Shown here piece after piece: positions 13,570 through 29,673 of a stretch of 64,000 bases of DNA. The notes beneath the pieces were generated by a model. That model saw nothing but the letters and a program-made list of their open reading frames with translations, did not search any database and had not been told where the DNA came from. A program made the position numbers and the translations under genes. The stretch comes from Pirellula sp. GTDB taxonomy: Bacteria; Planctomycetota; Planctomycetia; Pirellulales; PNKZ01. The stretch's first letter is position 1. Every line of letters begins with the position of its first letter. The stretch spans positions 62,001 through 126,000 of the forward strand of contig PNKZ01000008.1 of NCBI GenBank assembly GCA_013822735.1, in the 5' to 3' direction.

Positions 13570-13643
13570 GGGCAATTAGCTCAGTTGGTTAGAGCACTAT
13601 CTTCACACGGTAGGGGTCACAGGTTCGAGTCCTGTATTGCCCA
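13570..13643 (+). tRNA. tRNA-Val (CAC)
   Basis: All arms fold: acceptor GGGCAAT/ATTGCCC, D-arm GCTC/GAGC, anticodon stem CTATC/GGTAG around the loop TTCACAC (anticodon CAC), T-arm ACAGG-TTCGAGT-CCTGT, discriminator A. The 3' CCA is not encoded. Its 3' end, from 13629, is the left attachment site of the integrated element; the element restores a complete tRNA and supplies a new terminator. Confidence 0.95.
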
Positions 13644-15001
13644 CTAGAAGAGTCTGCAAATTCACGGCTCTCCGCAAAAACCCGCGTAACTGCGGGTTTC
13701 TTTTTTTCTCCTGACCCGTCCTGACCCTCACCACCGCTGCCCGATTGCAAGATAATTGCAGCGCTCGCTTCGCGATCGTCGGCCACGGCCCGACCCTGAG
13801 CTTCGAACATGGCCGTTCGGAGTTGGGCGTAGTGCTTGAGAAGCATGGCTGGGGAGTGGCCCATCCACTCAGCGACGTTCTGAATCGGGTAGCTGTCGAT
13901 GAGTTCCGTGGCCCGCGTGCTGCGTAGGTTTTGGAAGACCTTTTCCCACTCCGCCACGCCCGCCCGCTTGATGATCTTGCGCATCGTCGTGCCAAGATTG
14001 GTGTGGCCGCGCAGCCGGTTGAGCACGTAGACGTCGCCGGGCTCGGCCTGCTCGAACGCATCCCGCATCAGGTTCGGCAACACCGACCACAACTCAGGAT
14101 GCTTCGAGTTGTAGAGCGGCATCCACCGTGCGCCCTTGCCTTCGTGGTGCTCGGTCTTCGGCGAGTGAATGAGCATTTGCTGGTTCGCCCAGTCGAAGTG
14201 CTCCCACTTGAGCCCGTCGATTTCGCTCGGCGTGCGCAGGCCGCCCCACCGAGCAAGGGCGAAAACGATCTTCCATTCCATCGAAGGGCACGCTTCGAGC
14301 ACCTTCAATGCGTTTGCCTCGACGACGTAGAACATCCGATCTTTGTTGGCCCGAACCGATTCGCAGAGACCACGGAACGGGTTTTCGTCGATGATCTTAC
14401 CATCGACCGCGGCGGCAAAGAATTGCGAAGCCATCGAGACGCGCCGCCGCGCGGTGTTCGCCGCGAGCCCTTCGCCGCGCACGTCCGCCGGCACGTCGTC
14501 GGGCTTCTCAGGCTTCGGCCGTAGCAGGTACGCGCGAAAGGCCTTGGCGTCCAACTTAGTGACTGTCGACAACTCGCGATCGGATCCAAAGAACGCGAGC
14601 AAGTTGCGCTCGGTATGTCCGTAGAACGTGGCCGTTCCATTTTTCACATCCGCCCGCAAGCTGAGGTAGCGGGTTAGGAACGCGCCGAGTTGCGTGCGAG
14701 GCGCGTCGTCGATCGGCCGCAGCAAACCGAACTCCACAAGCTTATCGCCGATCGTCGGCCCGATGCTCGCAAGCCAGGCCTCGATAACGTTCATTTGCTT
14801 CTGATCGCTGATGCCGCCAATGCGCACCGACTCGATGAGCTTTTGAAGCATCGCCGCATCTTGGTCGGCGGCCTTGTCGGTTTTCTCTTTGCCGAATCGC
14901 AACGTTCGCCGCTTGCCGTCGGGCGCTGTGAACTGCACGACGACGCAACCGGAGCGGTCGCGTTGCCATCCGCGCTTGATGCGTTTCTTAGGTGTGGCCA
15001 T
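13589..15001 (-). CDS. int: Tyrosine-type site-specific integrase
   Basis: 470 residues. N-terminal DNA-binding and core-binding region about 1-205, catalytic domain about 210-395. Catalytic pieces: first Arg in ARWGGLRTPSEIDGLKW (near 254), NLRSTRATEL (near 355, with Ser where many family members have His), WMGHSPAM (near 380) and the nucleophile Tyr in KHYAQL (near 388). After the Tyr follows an ~80-residue tail. The last ~20 codons (SSSGQYRTRTCDPYRVKIVL) are read from attL and antisense to the tRNA, so this end is created by integration; the unintegrated form would end differently (see 29425). It starts 2 bp after the stop of the upstream gene at 15004. Confidence 0.92.
   Translation of the reverse strand: MATPKKRIKRGWQRDRSGCVVVQFTAPDGKRRTLRFGKEKTDKAADQDAAMLQKLIESVRIGGISDQKQMNVIEAWLASIGPTIGDKLVEFGLLRPIDDAPRTQLGAFLTRYLSLRADVKNGTATFYGHTERNLLAFFGSDRELSTVTKLDAKAFRAYLLRPKPEKPDDVPADVRGEGLAANTARRRVSMASQFFAAAVDGKIIDENPFRGLCESVRANKDRMFYVVEANALKVLEACPSMEWKIVFALARWGGLRTPSEIDGLKWEHFDWANQQMLIHSPKTEHHEGKGARWMPLYNSKHPELWSVLPNLMRDAFEQAEPGDVYVLNRLRGHTNLGTTMRKIIKRAGVAEWEKVFQNLRSTRATELIDSYPIQNVAEWMGHSPAMLLKHYAQLRTAMFEAQGRAVADDREASAAIILQSGSGGEGQDGSGEKKKPAVTRVFAESREFADSSSGQYRTRTCDPYRVKIVL
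13629..13651. other. attL core
   Basis: The 23-bp direct repeat GTCCTGTATTGCCC... ending ACTAGAAGA begins in the tRNA T-arm. Weaker similarity continues through the following terminator to about 13755, so the element carries a replacement for the host sequence it displaced. Confidence 0.9.
13678..13708 (+). terminator. tRNA-Val terminator supplied by the element
   Basis: AAACCCGC (13678-13685), 6-nt loop, GCGGGTTT (13692-13699) and a long T-run. It resembles the terminator right of attR (29697-29726), evidently the original host one. Confidence 0.85.
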
Positions 15002-15003
15002 CG

Positions 15004-15891
15004 TTACTCGGCTCCCTTCGTGGTGGTCGCGGCTTCGTTGCTGCCGTAAAGATCCGGCGCGAGTTCGGGCGAGACATAGCCCTTCGTTTCTCCGGCCTCG
15101 ACCATCGCCTCATCGAGCACGATGAACAATTCACGGAGCAAAGTAAATGCGCCCTTGCGAATCCATTTCGCTGGCAAGTCGCCCCCGGTGTAATCCTTGC
15201 ACGCCGCATCCATCCACGCGGCGGCTTGCTTCACGATGGTTGCGAAGGGTTCGGCAGAAGCCGCGGCGGCGAGTTCCGCGCGTCGCTGTTCATGACGATC
15301 GATTGGCACGGCTTCATTCGTTGGCGCCTTCGAAAGGTCAGGCACCTTAAACGTCAGCACCTCGAAACGATCTTCGCGGTTAATGCTTCGCAACACTCCA
15401 AGCGAACCAGTCGGGTCGCGACCGACAACCGGATCAACTGCAACACTCCGCTCGCCCGTCTTTCCATCGATCCGGATGATTTGGAATCCGTCGAAACGGC
15501 CGATAGCGTTCGCTGATGCGAGATCGGCGAGCGTGGCGGGGTGTTCCTTCCGCCATTTCGCGAGGCTTATTTCTTCTGGCGTCGTCAACGTGTCGCCCTT
15601 CATCCGACGAATCCGGTACATCTCTTGCCGCAGATCCACCACGGTTCCGGTGATTTCCTTCCCATCGGCCGTGCGAATGACGAACGGCAGATCAGGGAAC
15701 GCCTTACGGGCTTCGGCGTCGATGTCGGCCGGGCAATTGTCGGTCGACAATGTTAGAGATGCCGGCGGCGCGAGCGCGCCCTTCACGCTGCGGACCTTCA
15801 CGGCCGAGGGCTTGCGGGTGGTGACGGACTTTGCCGAATTGGCCGCCGACTTCGTGGAACGGCGCGCGGTGATGCTCTTCGTGGTCTTCAT
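15004..15891 (-). CDS. Element protein of unknown function, co-transcribed with integrase
   Basis: 295 residues. The first ~45 are very basic and Ser/Thr/Lys-rich (MKTTKSITARRSTKSAANSA), a disordered, nucleic-acid-binding-like tail. The middle (about 60-200) has beta-strand character with charged loops; the C-terminal ~90 residues are helical (IVKQAAAWMDAACKDYTGGD, then LLRELFIVLDEAMVEAGE). No family recognised. The stop lies immediately upstream of the integrase start, so translation is probably coupled, and a DNA-handling or integration-accessory role is possible but unproven. Confidence 0.7.
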   Translation of the reverse strand: MKTTKSITARRSTKSAANSAKSVTTRKPSAVKVRSVKGALAPPASLTLSTDNCPADIDAEARKAFPDLPFVIRTADGKEITGTVVDLRQEMYRIRRMKGDTLTTPEEISLAKWRKEHPATLADLASANAIGRFDGFQIIRIDGKTGERSVAVDPVVGRDPTGSLGVLRSINREDRFEVLTFKVPDLSKAPTNEAVPIDRHEQRRAELAAAASAEPFATIVKQAAAWMDAACKDYTGGDLPAKWIRKGAFTLLRELFIVLDEAMVEAGETKGYVSPELAPDLYGSNEAATTTKGAE

Positions 15892-28861: not shown

Positions 28862-28922
28862 ATGTTCGGTCCTTTGCTTGCGGTGGTGGATGGTTCGATC
28901 TTCTCTCAAGGTTAGAGGCGGC

Positions 28923-29111
28923 CTATTTCAATCGCTTCACAATCCGGCCCGGCGCTTTTGGCCCGGGCCATTGCTTGGTCGAATCGCAGAAAATTGCCCA
29001 CGCTTCGTTTTCGTCGGCTGCGTAAACGGTGGAGGTTTGACCGTTAAACGTGACTTGAAATCGCGCTCGTTGGGCCTGATCTTCGTTGCTGTGAATTGTT
29101 ACCGTCTTCAT
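28923..29111 (-). CDS. Small element protein, unknown
   Basis: 62 residues, a compact beta/alpha pattern (VTIHSNEDQAQRARFQVTFN, STVYAADENEAWAIFCDST) with a basic end (GRIVKRLK). Its ATG overlaps the stop of the preceding gene (ATGA), so the two are translationally coupled. No family recognised. Confidence 0.6.
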   Translation of the reverse strand: MKTVTIHSNEDQAQRARFQVTFNGQTSTVYAADENEAWAIFCDSTKQWPGPKAPGRIVKRLK

Positions 29112-29428
29112 CCCTTCGTTCCTTCCATGGTGTCGGCCGCGGCGACATCCGGCGAAGTGCCGGTAGGAGCGTTGGCCGTGGTGGTGGTCTTCAATTGCAA
29201 CTTCCGCCAGTCCGCGATGTATCGCAGCACGCGTAGGGCGGACTGCCGGAGATTGCCGTGAATGGGCGCCTGCCGGGCAATCCGGTCACACGCCGTTTCA
29301 ATCCGGGCGACGTCGGCCGCGTTGACGGGCTCGCCCAATCGCAGCCGTCGGCCGAATAGGTCGATGTCAGCGTTGGTGACATGCCCGGGAGCAGGCCGGC
29401 GGGGTTTGCTGAATCGCCAATCCGTCAC
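29108..29428 (-). CDS. Element protein of unknown function
   Basis: 106 residues from a GTG that overlaps the TGA of the frame before it (GTGA); its own stop overlaps the next ATG. Helical, Arg-rich core: DLFGRRLRLGEPVNAADVAR, IETACDRIARQAPIHGNLRQ, SALRVLRYIADWRKLQLK. Two overlapping junctions in a row are strong support that 29425-29673, 29108-29428 and 28923-29111 are one translated unit. No family recognised. Confidence 0.65.
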   Translation of the reverse strand: MTDWRFSKPRRPAPGHVTNADIDLFGRRLRLGEPVNAADVARIETACDRIARQAPIHGNLRQSALRVLRYIADWRKLQLKTTTTANAPTGTSPDVAAADTMEGTKG

Positions 29429-29673
29429 GATTGCACCTCCGCGGGGGAAGTGCGGGCGTGGTCGGCGGCCAGGGCCCGGGCGACGGCCAGGAGTTCGCCG
29501 AGGGCCGGCGGGGGAAGGGTGGCGGCCAGGGTGGTAAGTTCGGCAAGGTCGGGGCGAGAATTGCCCGAATCACTTCCCGATTGCAGTACGATTGCAGGAT
29601 TTTCCCACGAACTTGCAATTTCCCCGCGTTCTACGCCACTAGTTGCGGTCCTGTATTGCCCACTAGAAGACAA
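29425..29673 (-). CDS. 82-codon frame at the right end; would be the integrase C-terminus in the circular form
   Basis: In the integrated state the frame begins with a weak TTG inside attR (stop codon just upstream) and encodes SSSGQYRTATSGVERGEIA, VLQSGSDSGNS and LAELTTLAATLPPPALGELL, AVARALAADHART. Its first eight residues after the start (SSSGQYRT) come from the attachment repeat and are in the same frame as the integrase reading into attL. Joined at attP, the integrase would be about 531 residues, ending here. Its stop overlaps the next gene by GTGA, supporting real translation. Whether the short form is made in the integrated state is uncertain. Confidence 0.6.
   Translation of the reverse strand: MSSSGQYRTATSGVERGEIASSWENPAIVLQSGSDSGNSRPDLAELTTLAATLPPPALGELLAVARALAADHARTSPAEVQS
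29648..29670. other. attR core
   Basis: Identical over 23 bp to 13629-13651. The host sequence to its right continues with imperfect similarity to the attL side, including the tRNA-type terminator. Confidence 0.9.

Follow-up and report, generated by a model that had tools for sequence, protein, structure and literature searches.

We analysed a stretch of 64,000 nucleotides (nt) from the genome of Pirellula sp. (assembly GCA_013822735.1, with 38 contigs and 6.88 Mb; contig PNKZ01000008.1, positions 62,001 to 126,000), hereafter the window, which holds an integrated element with a tyrosine integrase gene at its left end (Table 1). The element comprises 16,019 bp and is bounded by a 23-bp repeat starting at positions 13629 and 29648, the left copy of which (the attL core) copies the 3' end of a tRNA-Val gene. 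The integrase matches PF00589 (E = 8.6e-11), PF13102 (E = 3.8e-6) and phrog_1, and it has kept the catalytic residues R256, K282, R360, H382 and Y391, with Q357 at the place of the usual box II histidine. All of these residues are encoded upstream of the core. The reading frame then runs through the core into the tRNA gene, as had been described in an earlier reading made from the sequence only; about 17.7 codons are antisense to the tRNA, and 12 residues lie beyond the core.

At the other end of the element, the integrase codon phase remains open for 73-74 codons after the attR core, whereas the other two frames close at 5 and 2 codons. When the attL and attR ends are joined as in an excised circle, a single frame of 531 amino acids (aa) results, which bears out the fusion that the sequence-only reading proposed. 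That reading had also described an 82-codon frame at 29425-29673 on the minus strand as starting inside attR. This frame does continue that of the integrase, but its TTG "start" falls in the flanking DNA, immediately beyond the core, and is thus not evidence for an independent gene. We therefore found no support for a tail gene with its own TTG start.

Table 1 Features of the integrated element and its borders (positions in the window).
Feature	Position	Strand	Basis or remark
tRNA-Val(CAC), integration target	13570..13644	+	ARAGORN; antisense strand gives the last residues and stop of the prophage integrase
Tyrosine integrase, prophage (short) form, 470 aa	13589..15001	-	Open reading frame, Pfam, phrog_1
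attL core, 23 bp, common to attR	13629..13651	.	Repeat comparison
P' arm within integrase coding sequence	13652..13790	.	GATTGCA-type repeats ~100 bp from core
295-aa gene, 2 nt upstream of integrase gene	15004..15891	-	Open reading frame map
959-aa replication protein	20173..23052	-	DnaB N-terminal domain, AAA_25; Toprim-like signal weak
HTH_17 protein, excisionase- or regulator-like	23124..23522	-	Family profile matches
256-aa protein, weak prohead-protease-like signal only	27497..28267	-	TIGR01543, E = 0.14; phrog_29592, E = 6.8e-7, function unknown
193-aa protein, earlier labelled scaffold-like	28328..28909	-	Sub-threshold family matches only
62-aa frame	28923..29111	-	4-nt overlap (ATGA) with 106-aa frame
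106-aa frame	29108..29428	-	Start overlaps tail stop by GTGA (four bases)
Orphaned integrase C-terminal tail, 73 aa after core	29425..29647	-	Contains the P arm, with direct repeats that match; hairpin of two helices predicted
attR core, 23 bp	29648..29670	.	Repeat comparison
B' flank right of attR	29671..29767	.	77% identity to the P' arm of the element itself beyond the core (79% when the core is counted)

Integrases related to that of the window are present in 68 of the 97 relatives searched, and most of those beside a tRNA gene share its antisense end (below, L-numbers denote loci of related integrases or elements in this analysis, and G:C labels a genome and contig). Among 41 loci examined, 36 have a nearby tRNA, and at 33 of these the integrase open reading frame (ORF) enters the tRNA on the antisense strand, the exceptions being L078, L096 and the frame-shifted L107. 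The same end was found at 70 of the 71 tRNA loci (exception: L220) in a second set of 149 ORFs from viral and named-genome loci, and at all 29 loci of a third set, of which 13 were first-set loci seen again and 16 were new. Some of the same genomes are included in the named contigs of the 149-ORF set, and so the sets are not independent. The named-genome loci were the best 80 of 560 from an alignment-based profile search of contigs, a search that gave no matches when the single window protein served as query; 76 of these best 80 carry planctomycete names. Cultured bacteria that carry relatives include Lacipirellula limnantheis (L225/L260), Aeoliella straminimaris (L256) and Alienimonas chondri (L264/L265). 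A search for close relatives among the INPHARED phages gave nine records, at an identity of about 26%. The tRNA types used include Val, Met, Arg, Leu, Glu, Ser, Lys, Asn, Gln, Ile, Ala and Tyr. On a tree of 170 rows, 31 changes suffice to explain the tRNA label, and each of 500 shuffles required more. Rows left out of the analysis were L107, whose integrase frame is broken while the tail motif described below is present, the duplicates L227 and L239, and, in the third set, L092chk, which had already been counted. The prophage integrase is free of stops in all 15 elements of the third set with a core repeat. Over 104 loci, its ends were classed, in a rough pattern count with repeated elements kept in, as GLEP-type antisense frame (81), RTRT type (14), SN type (2) or other (7). 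From these sequences, the antisense-tRNA end with its C-terminal swap is a family trait, and it appears to be the common state of a large planctomycete integrase family.

We paired both ends of 22 distinct elements, consisting of 15 of the 41 first-set loci and nine of the 71 tRNA loci of the second set, two of them repeated. Pairing required a core repeat and an intact integrase; the remaining loci had no accepted repeat in the stretch examined or no nearby tRNA, and for L070, L079, L097 (13 bp) and L099 the core was picked by eye among the listed repeats. The opening after the core was much longer in the integrase frame than in the other frames (median of 62.5 versus 12 codons; Mann-Whitney p = 1.8e-6) and was the longest of the three in 17 of the 22 elements. 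Across these elements, on many tRNA types, the core stands in all three codon phases (6/8/8), and still the tail is in frame. The tails share a motif, roughly DxDLAxxVxAWPxLPxxxRxxILAIV, which a leave-one-out profile placed in the integrase frame in 18 of the 22 (at least 8.1 bits), the best score in any other frame being 7.9 bits (L072). For 14 new elements paired in the third set, the motif was in frame in 11 (at least 9.3 bits) and in none of the 28 other frames. At least seven of the 14 were chosen because integrase and tail motif were already known on one contig, so that this set tests frame rather than prevalence. The 22 and the 14 elements together give an in-frame C-terminal motif at the far end in 29 of 36 elements. 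Where integrase and tail matches share a contig (among the matches listed, with one tail per contig), 27 of 29 cases show both on the same strand and the tail on the upstream side (25% expected, p = 1.3e-14), the two exceptions being G054:C221 and a decayed copy, G000:C2, in the window's own genome. The in-frame openings, the frame of the motif and these strand and order statistics led us to reject the possibility that, across the family, the tail is a chance ORF.

The sequence-only reading had suggested a search for free relatives with the long integrase, and such molecules were found. Among the 149 integrase ORFs, those with an antisense tRNA number 71 and those with the tail motif six, and no ORF has both. 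The six represent four distinct viruses (L115, L116/L117, L124/L126 and L125), and at a laxer threshold L131 and L136 carry the motif as well. Five contigs have terminal direct repeats and are thus circular or terminally redundant: L136 (7,355 bp, repeat 69), L133 (7,437 bp, repeat 123), L115 (25,586 bp, repeat 119), L125 (43,792 bp, repeat 80) and L117 (64,283 bp, repeat 44). All five encode the long integrase, with the L133 gene spanning the contig ends. An end repeat was looked for and not found in the contigs of L116, L124, L126 and L131. L124 and L126 are not circular permutations of one genome, since they overlap over 26.3 kb and extend at opposite ends. When compared with a library of 127 tRNA ends, a test that covered the free forms other than L133, a match to a tRNA 3' end stands just before the tail in L115 (Glu, run of 21), L124/L126 (14), L131 (Val, 14) and L136 (Val, 13). 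A natural pair is provided by L123, a prophage form with a tRNA-Ser end, and L124, a free form with the tail end, which are sisters on the tree. Across the 1300 nt that lead to the core the two share 81.8% identity, and their alignment ends 23 nt into the tRNA end. As judged from these genomes, free relatives encode a long integrase composed of catalytic domain, linker and hairpin, and the integrated form ends in a tRNA-antisense peptide. The two end-repeated contigs of about 7.3 kb, L133 and L136, are very small elements and putatively satellite-like.

The phage attachment site (attP) is embedded in coding DNA, with the core and both the P' and P arms lying within the 3' coding region of the integrase. 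In 21 of 22 sites the two arms share direct 12-mers (at least 11 of 12 positions), and 18 of the 22 have more of them than any of 30 shuffles. These repeats lie mostly 100-140 nt before the core and 35-75 nt after it, and inverted ones occur in two of the 22 sites. An AlphaFold model of the L136 integrase (mean predicted local distance difference test score, pLDDT, 77.8; predicted template modelling score 0.55) is confident in the N-terminal part, which consists of strands plus a helix, and in the catalytic part. The core falls in an unordered linker (residues 375-465), after which a hairpin is predicted (466-479/482-501), with block pLDDT of 85-93 for residues 471-500. The best structural match of this model in the PDB is lambda Int. 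By its sequence and the predicted fold of its relative, the window integrase is a lambda-type (heterobivalent) tyrosine integrase with putative arm binding. Between L133 and L136, nonsynonymous divergence (dN) is 0.09 as far as the catalytic tyrosine, 0.37 in the linker and 0.23 over the last 45 codons; the corresponding synonymous values (dS) are 0.54, 0.64 and 0.75. We read this pattern as constraint at the DNA level in a loose linker and at the protein level in the domains on either side.

The closest known system by design is Myxococcus xanthus phage Mx8, which the sequence-only reading omitted from the parallels it drew with SSV and mycobacteriophages. In Mx8, attP lies inside int (PMC6070905), and integration replaces 112 C-terminal integrase residues by 13 (PMC4701971). 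As in the window, attP of Mx8 (and Mx9) falls within a tyrosine integrase gene, in its 3' part, and a long C-terminus is exchanged for a short one; the window has its attP core within the int frame near the 3' end, and that frame is open on both sides. The excisionase gene uoi of Mx8 overlaps the start of int, and in all three of the related contigs tested (L117, L125 and L131) an HTH_17 gene overlaps int or abuts it. The Mx8 integrase also contains STGLEPV, which we took by eye for an antisense tRNA T-arm, though a DNA pattern scan did not match it. The Mx8 integrase barely matches the planctomycete profile, at 4.6 bits, and its tail has no motif match; the two thus share a design and are not shown to be of the same family. 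Mx8 is moreover a single phage, whereas the planctomycete design recurs across many hosts and tRNA species, in elements that are very small as well as in phage-sized ones, and has a single conserved hairpin at the C-terminus.

Other systems resemble the window less closely. SSV-type archaeal integrases likewise have their attachment site in the integrase gene, which integration cuts, but there the catalytic part (IntC) is split from the N-terminus (PMC8371274). They differ from the window integrase because their catalytic part is cut away, whereas in the window the gene split leaves the catalytic residues together in a whole catalytic domain and only the C-terminal accessory domain is lost. 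The serine integrases of streptococcal integrative and conjugative elements in rumA also undergo a 3'-end exchange that alters the integrase C-terminus on integration (PMC4701971). That case differs in its serine recombinase, its protein-coding target and the change in frame of both proteins. The integration-dependent immunity of mycobacteriophage BPs likewise involves an attachment site within a phage gene whose product is changed on integration, a gene that is reportedly the repressor and not the integrase. Phage satellites of the phage-inducible chromosomal island (PICI) and capsid-forming PICI (cfPICI) kinds combine an integrase and replication genes with few packaging or capsid genes, short of a full virion set. 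L136, which carries Terminase_4, Peptidase_S78 and DnaB_C genes in 7.3 kb, may be a candidate; the window element has DnaB/AAA domains but only a weak protease signal. In the open-licence literature, judged from titles and the starts of abstracts among the matches listed, we did not find this integrase design in planctomycetes.

We favour, at a probability of roughly 0.78, the reading that this is a lambda-type integrase containing attP, whose frame is cut on integration with its hairpin orphaned, such that the long form would integrate the element and the prophage isoform, with lower or altered activity, would stabilize it in the chromosome. The long form made from the circle would perform integration, and its C-terminal hairpin may help in integration or synapsis. 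As the sequences show, integration cuts the frame within the core, so that the hairpin-coding part is left orphaned at attR and the chromosomal integrase finishes with a few residues antisense to the tRNA; excision would restore the long form. The central claim of the sequence-only reading, that integration swaps the integrase C-terminus, gains strong and general support from the antisense tRNA ends and in-frame tails of the relatives. Two integrase forms are encoded in these sequences, the short one with its entire catalytic domain and catalytic residues, and by analogy with Mx8 we favour a loss of the hairpin that would leave the prophage integrase attenuated or retuned rather than inactive.

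Several observations weigh against this reading. The consequence proposed for function is borrowed from Mx8, and the Mx8 integrase is not shown to be a relative of these integrases. On the tree, 39 of the 170 rows are related integrases that end no more than 35 residues from the profile end, without an antisense tRNA; short ends of this kind are one of the observations that the sequence-only reading had named as evidence against itself, and that evidence is partly present. Many of these rows are in clades of their own; L112, L114 and L119, however, stand among the tRNA-type rows, and so the long tail is not universal. No tRNA-derived core was recognised in the L116/L117 or L125 ORFs with the 127 tRNA ends, and the arm repeats are not above shuffles in four of the 22 sites (L072, L074, L099 and L251). 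The motif has no profile match in seven of the 36 paired elements (the window, L091, L092, L265, L090, L347 and L349). In the leave-one-out test the tail of the window element scores 0, and a profile of 53 distinct motifs that excluded the window gives it 1.6 bits, with 209 of 5000 shuffles as good.

A stronger version, which we consider less likely than not, is a switch between isoforms in which the hairpin would promote integration and its replacement by a peptide antisense to a conserved host tRNA, mostly in one antisense frame, would give a stable or excision-tuned prophage form, while the same cut would set the expression of packaging genes behind the tail. If so, a host tRNA would encode part of a viral enzyme. 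We consider it rather unlikely that the swap is instead a passive by-product, with attP placed in int for compactness as one exchangeable module and both forms working equally well. The stop-free prophage integrases noted above (15 elements) would agree with this, as would the position of arms and core in a predicted disordered linker, at low cost to the protein, and the finding that the swap did not inactivate the Mx8 integrase (PMC6070905). Nonetheless, a predicted folded hairpin is kept in frame across hosts and tRNAs even though it is lost at every integration, and a hairpin without function should not be conserved; the shortened Mx8 integrase is also less active (PMC4701971).

It was further proposed in the sequence-only reading that the circle carries one leftward operon that integration interrupts, and we asked how far the gene order agrees. 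Genes after the tail may be separated by integration from readthrough transcription of int, though we propose this less surely than the roles of the two integrase forms. In the window, a tightly spaced stretch crosses attP, consisting of the 295-aa gene, int, the tail and four frames; the genes at the junction itself overlap by 4 nt or stand 2 nt from each other, and both the GTGA and the ATGA junction described earlier are present. L136 has its Pfam-supported genes on one strand, in the order int-tail, HTH_17, HNH, Terminase_4 (small terminase), Peptidase_S78 (prohead protease), HTH_17, DnaB and int, and by its ORF map L133 is similar, its plausible genes following one another on a single strand that includes int and tail. 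The tail stop of L125 is followed after 3 nt by the start of a VRR_NUC gene. Thus the abutting genes at the window junction and the one-strand gene sets of L133 and L136 agree with the proposal, but its single unit seems to be broken in the window by plus-strand frames on the ORF map. One group lies near 16.2-16.8 kb, within the 922 nt between a 605-aa gene and the 295-aa gene, where frames on both strands overlap (15888-16601 on the minus and 16195-16812 on the plus strand). Another occupies ~24.8-27.3 kb (24847-27343), between the regulator and the right-end genes, and six plus-strand frames that were tested had no confident Pfam match. In addition, about 480 nt separate the L136 tail from the next Pfam-supported gene, the distance from tail to next frame varies widely among the paired elements, and L133 and L136 too have large frames on the opposite strand. 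The operon proposal thus has partial support; that circularisation also rejoins an operon, with packaging-type genes expressed only after excision, seems doubtful to us.

It is improbable that integration is suicidal, that is, that the prophage integrase is inactive and excision needs the long integrase of a superinfecting relative, as proposed for the SSV-type integrases. A C-terminal domain is indeed lost on integration, and related integrases are frequent enough (68 of 97 relatives) that they could act in trans; however, the catalytic residues and N-terminal region stay in the prophage form, unlike in SSV, and Mx8 keeps activity after its swap (PMC6070905). Far less probable still is that, in the window only, the right-end frame is a chance ORF of a decayed element: its profile scores are not above shuffles at 1% and a search with this tail in the 97 relatives gave only four weak and unconvincing matches (L034-L037, being one arginine-rich frame, two frames with stops and one unrelated longer protein), but set against this are the 73 open codons versus 5 and 2 in the other frames, the usual length, the predicted hairpin, the arm repeats in their usual places, and a Smith-Waterman similarity to 19 other tails that was beaten by only 1 of 2000 shuffles for the best score and 2 of 2000 for the sum. 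We read the window tail as a divergent member of the family.

The borders of the element hold traces of further events. A terminator-like hairpin on the plus strand (~13680-13708, read by eye) lies within the P' arm, and the similarity of the B' flank to this arm includes both the hairpin and an arm-like repeat. This flank had no match in the 96 other relatives, nor at the tRNA-Val(CAC) sites of five further genomes, three from the same genus and two from the same family, which speaks against a host tRNA terminator captured by the element. We therefore prefer the view that the flank is the probable scar of an earlier, related integration; a flank resembling the element's own P' arm was seen in three of 16 elements compared (the window, L097 and L099). 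The window's own genome also contains a second, broken integrase copy, L002 (G000:C2:179459-180360), followed by the tail motif in a different frame. At the right end of L077 (10751-12418), a single frame of 556 codons joins an int-like part upstream, the core and the tail; a tandem array, with an internal junction arranged as in attP, is the probable cause. L070 has two extra tail-motif matches within one element (13175-13288 and 10851-10997), and genome G054 has 27 matches; degraded tails may accumulate. Just outside the window element, at 30008-30316, lies a gene for an Mpo1-like protein (PF06127, E = 4.7e-40).

The C-terminal swap explains why integrases of this family end in GLEP- or RTRTCDP-like sequences, and the orphan hairpin ORF provides a practical marker for the far end of such elements. 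The design offers natural before-and-after pairs and a defined, removable domain, and with them a simple means of testing if the directionality of an integrase is set by integration itself.

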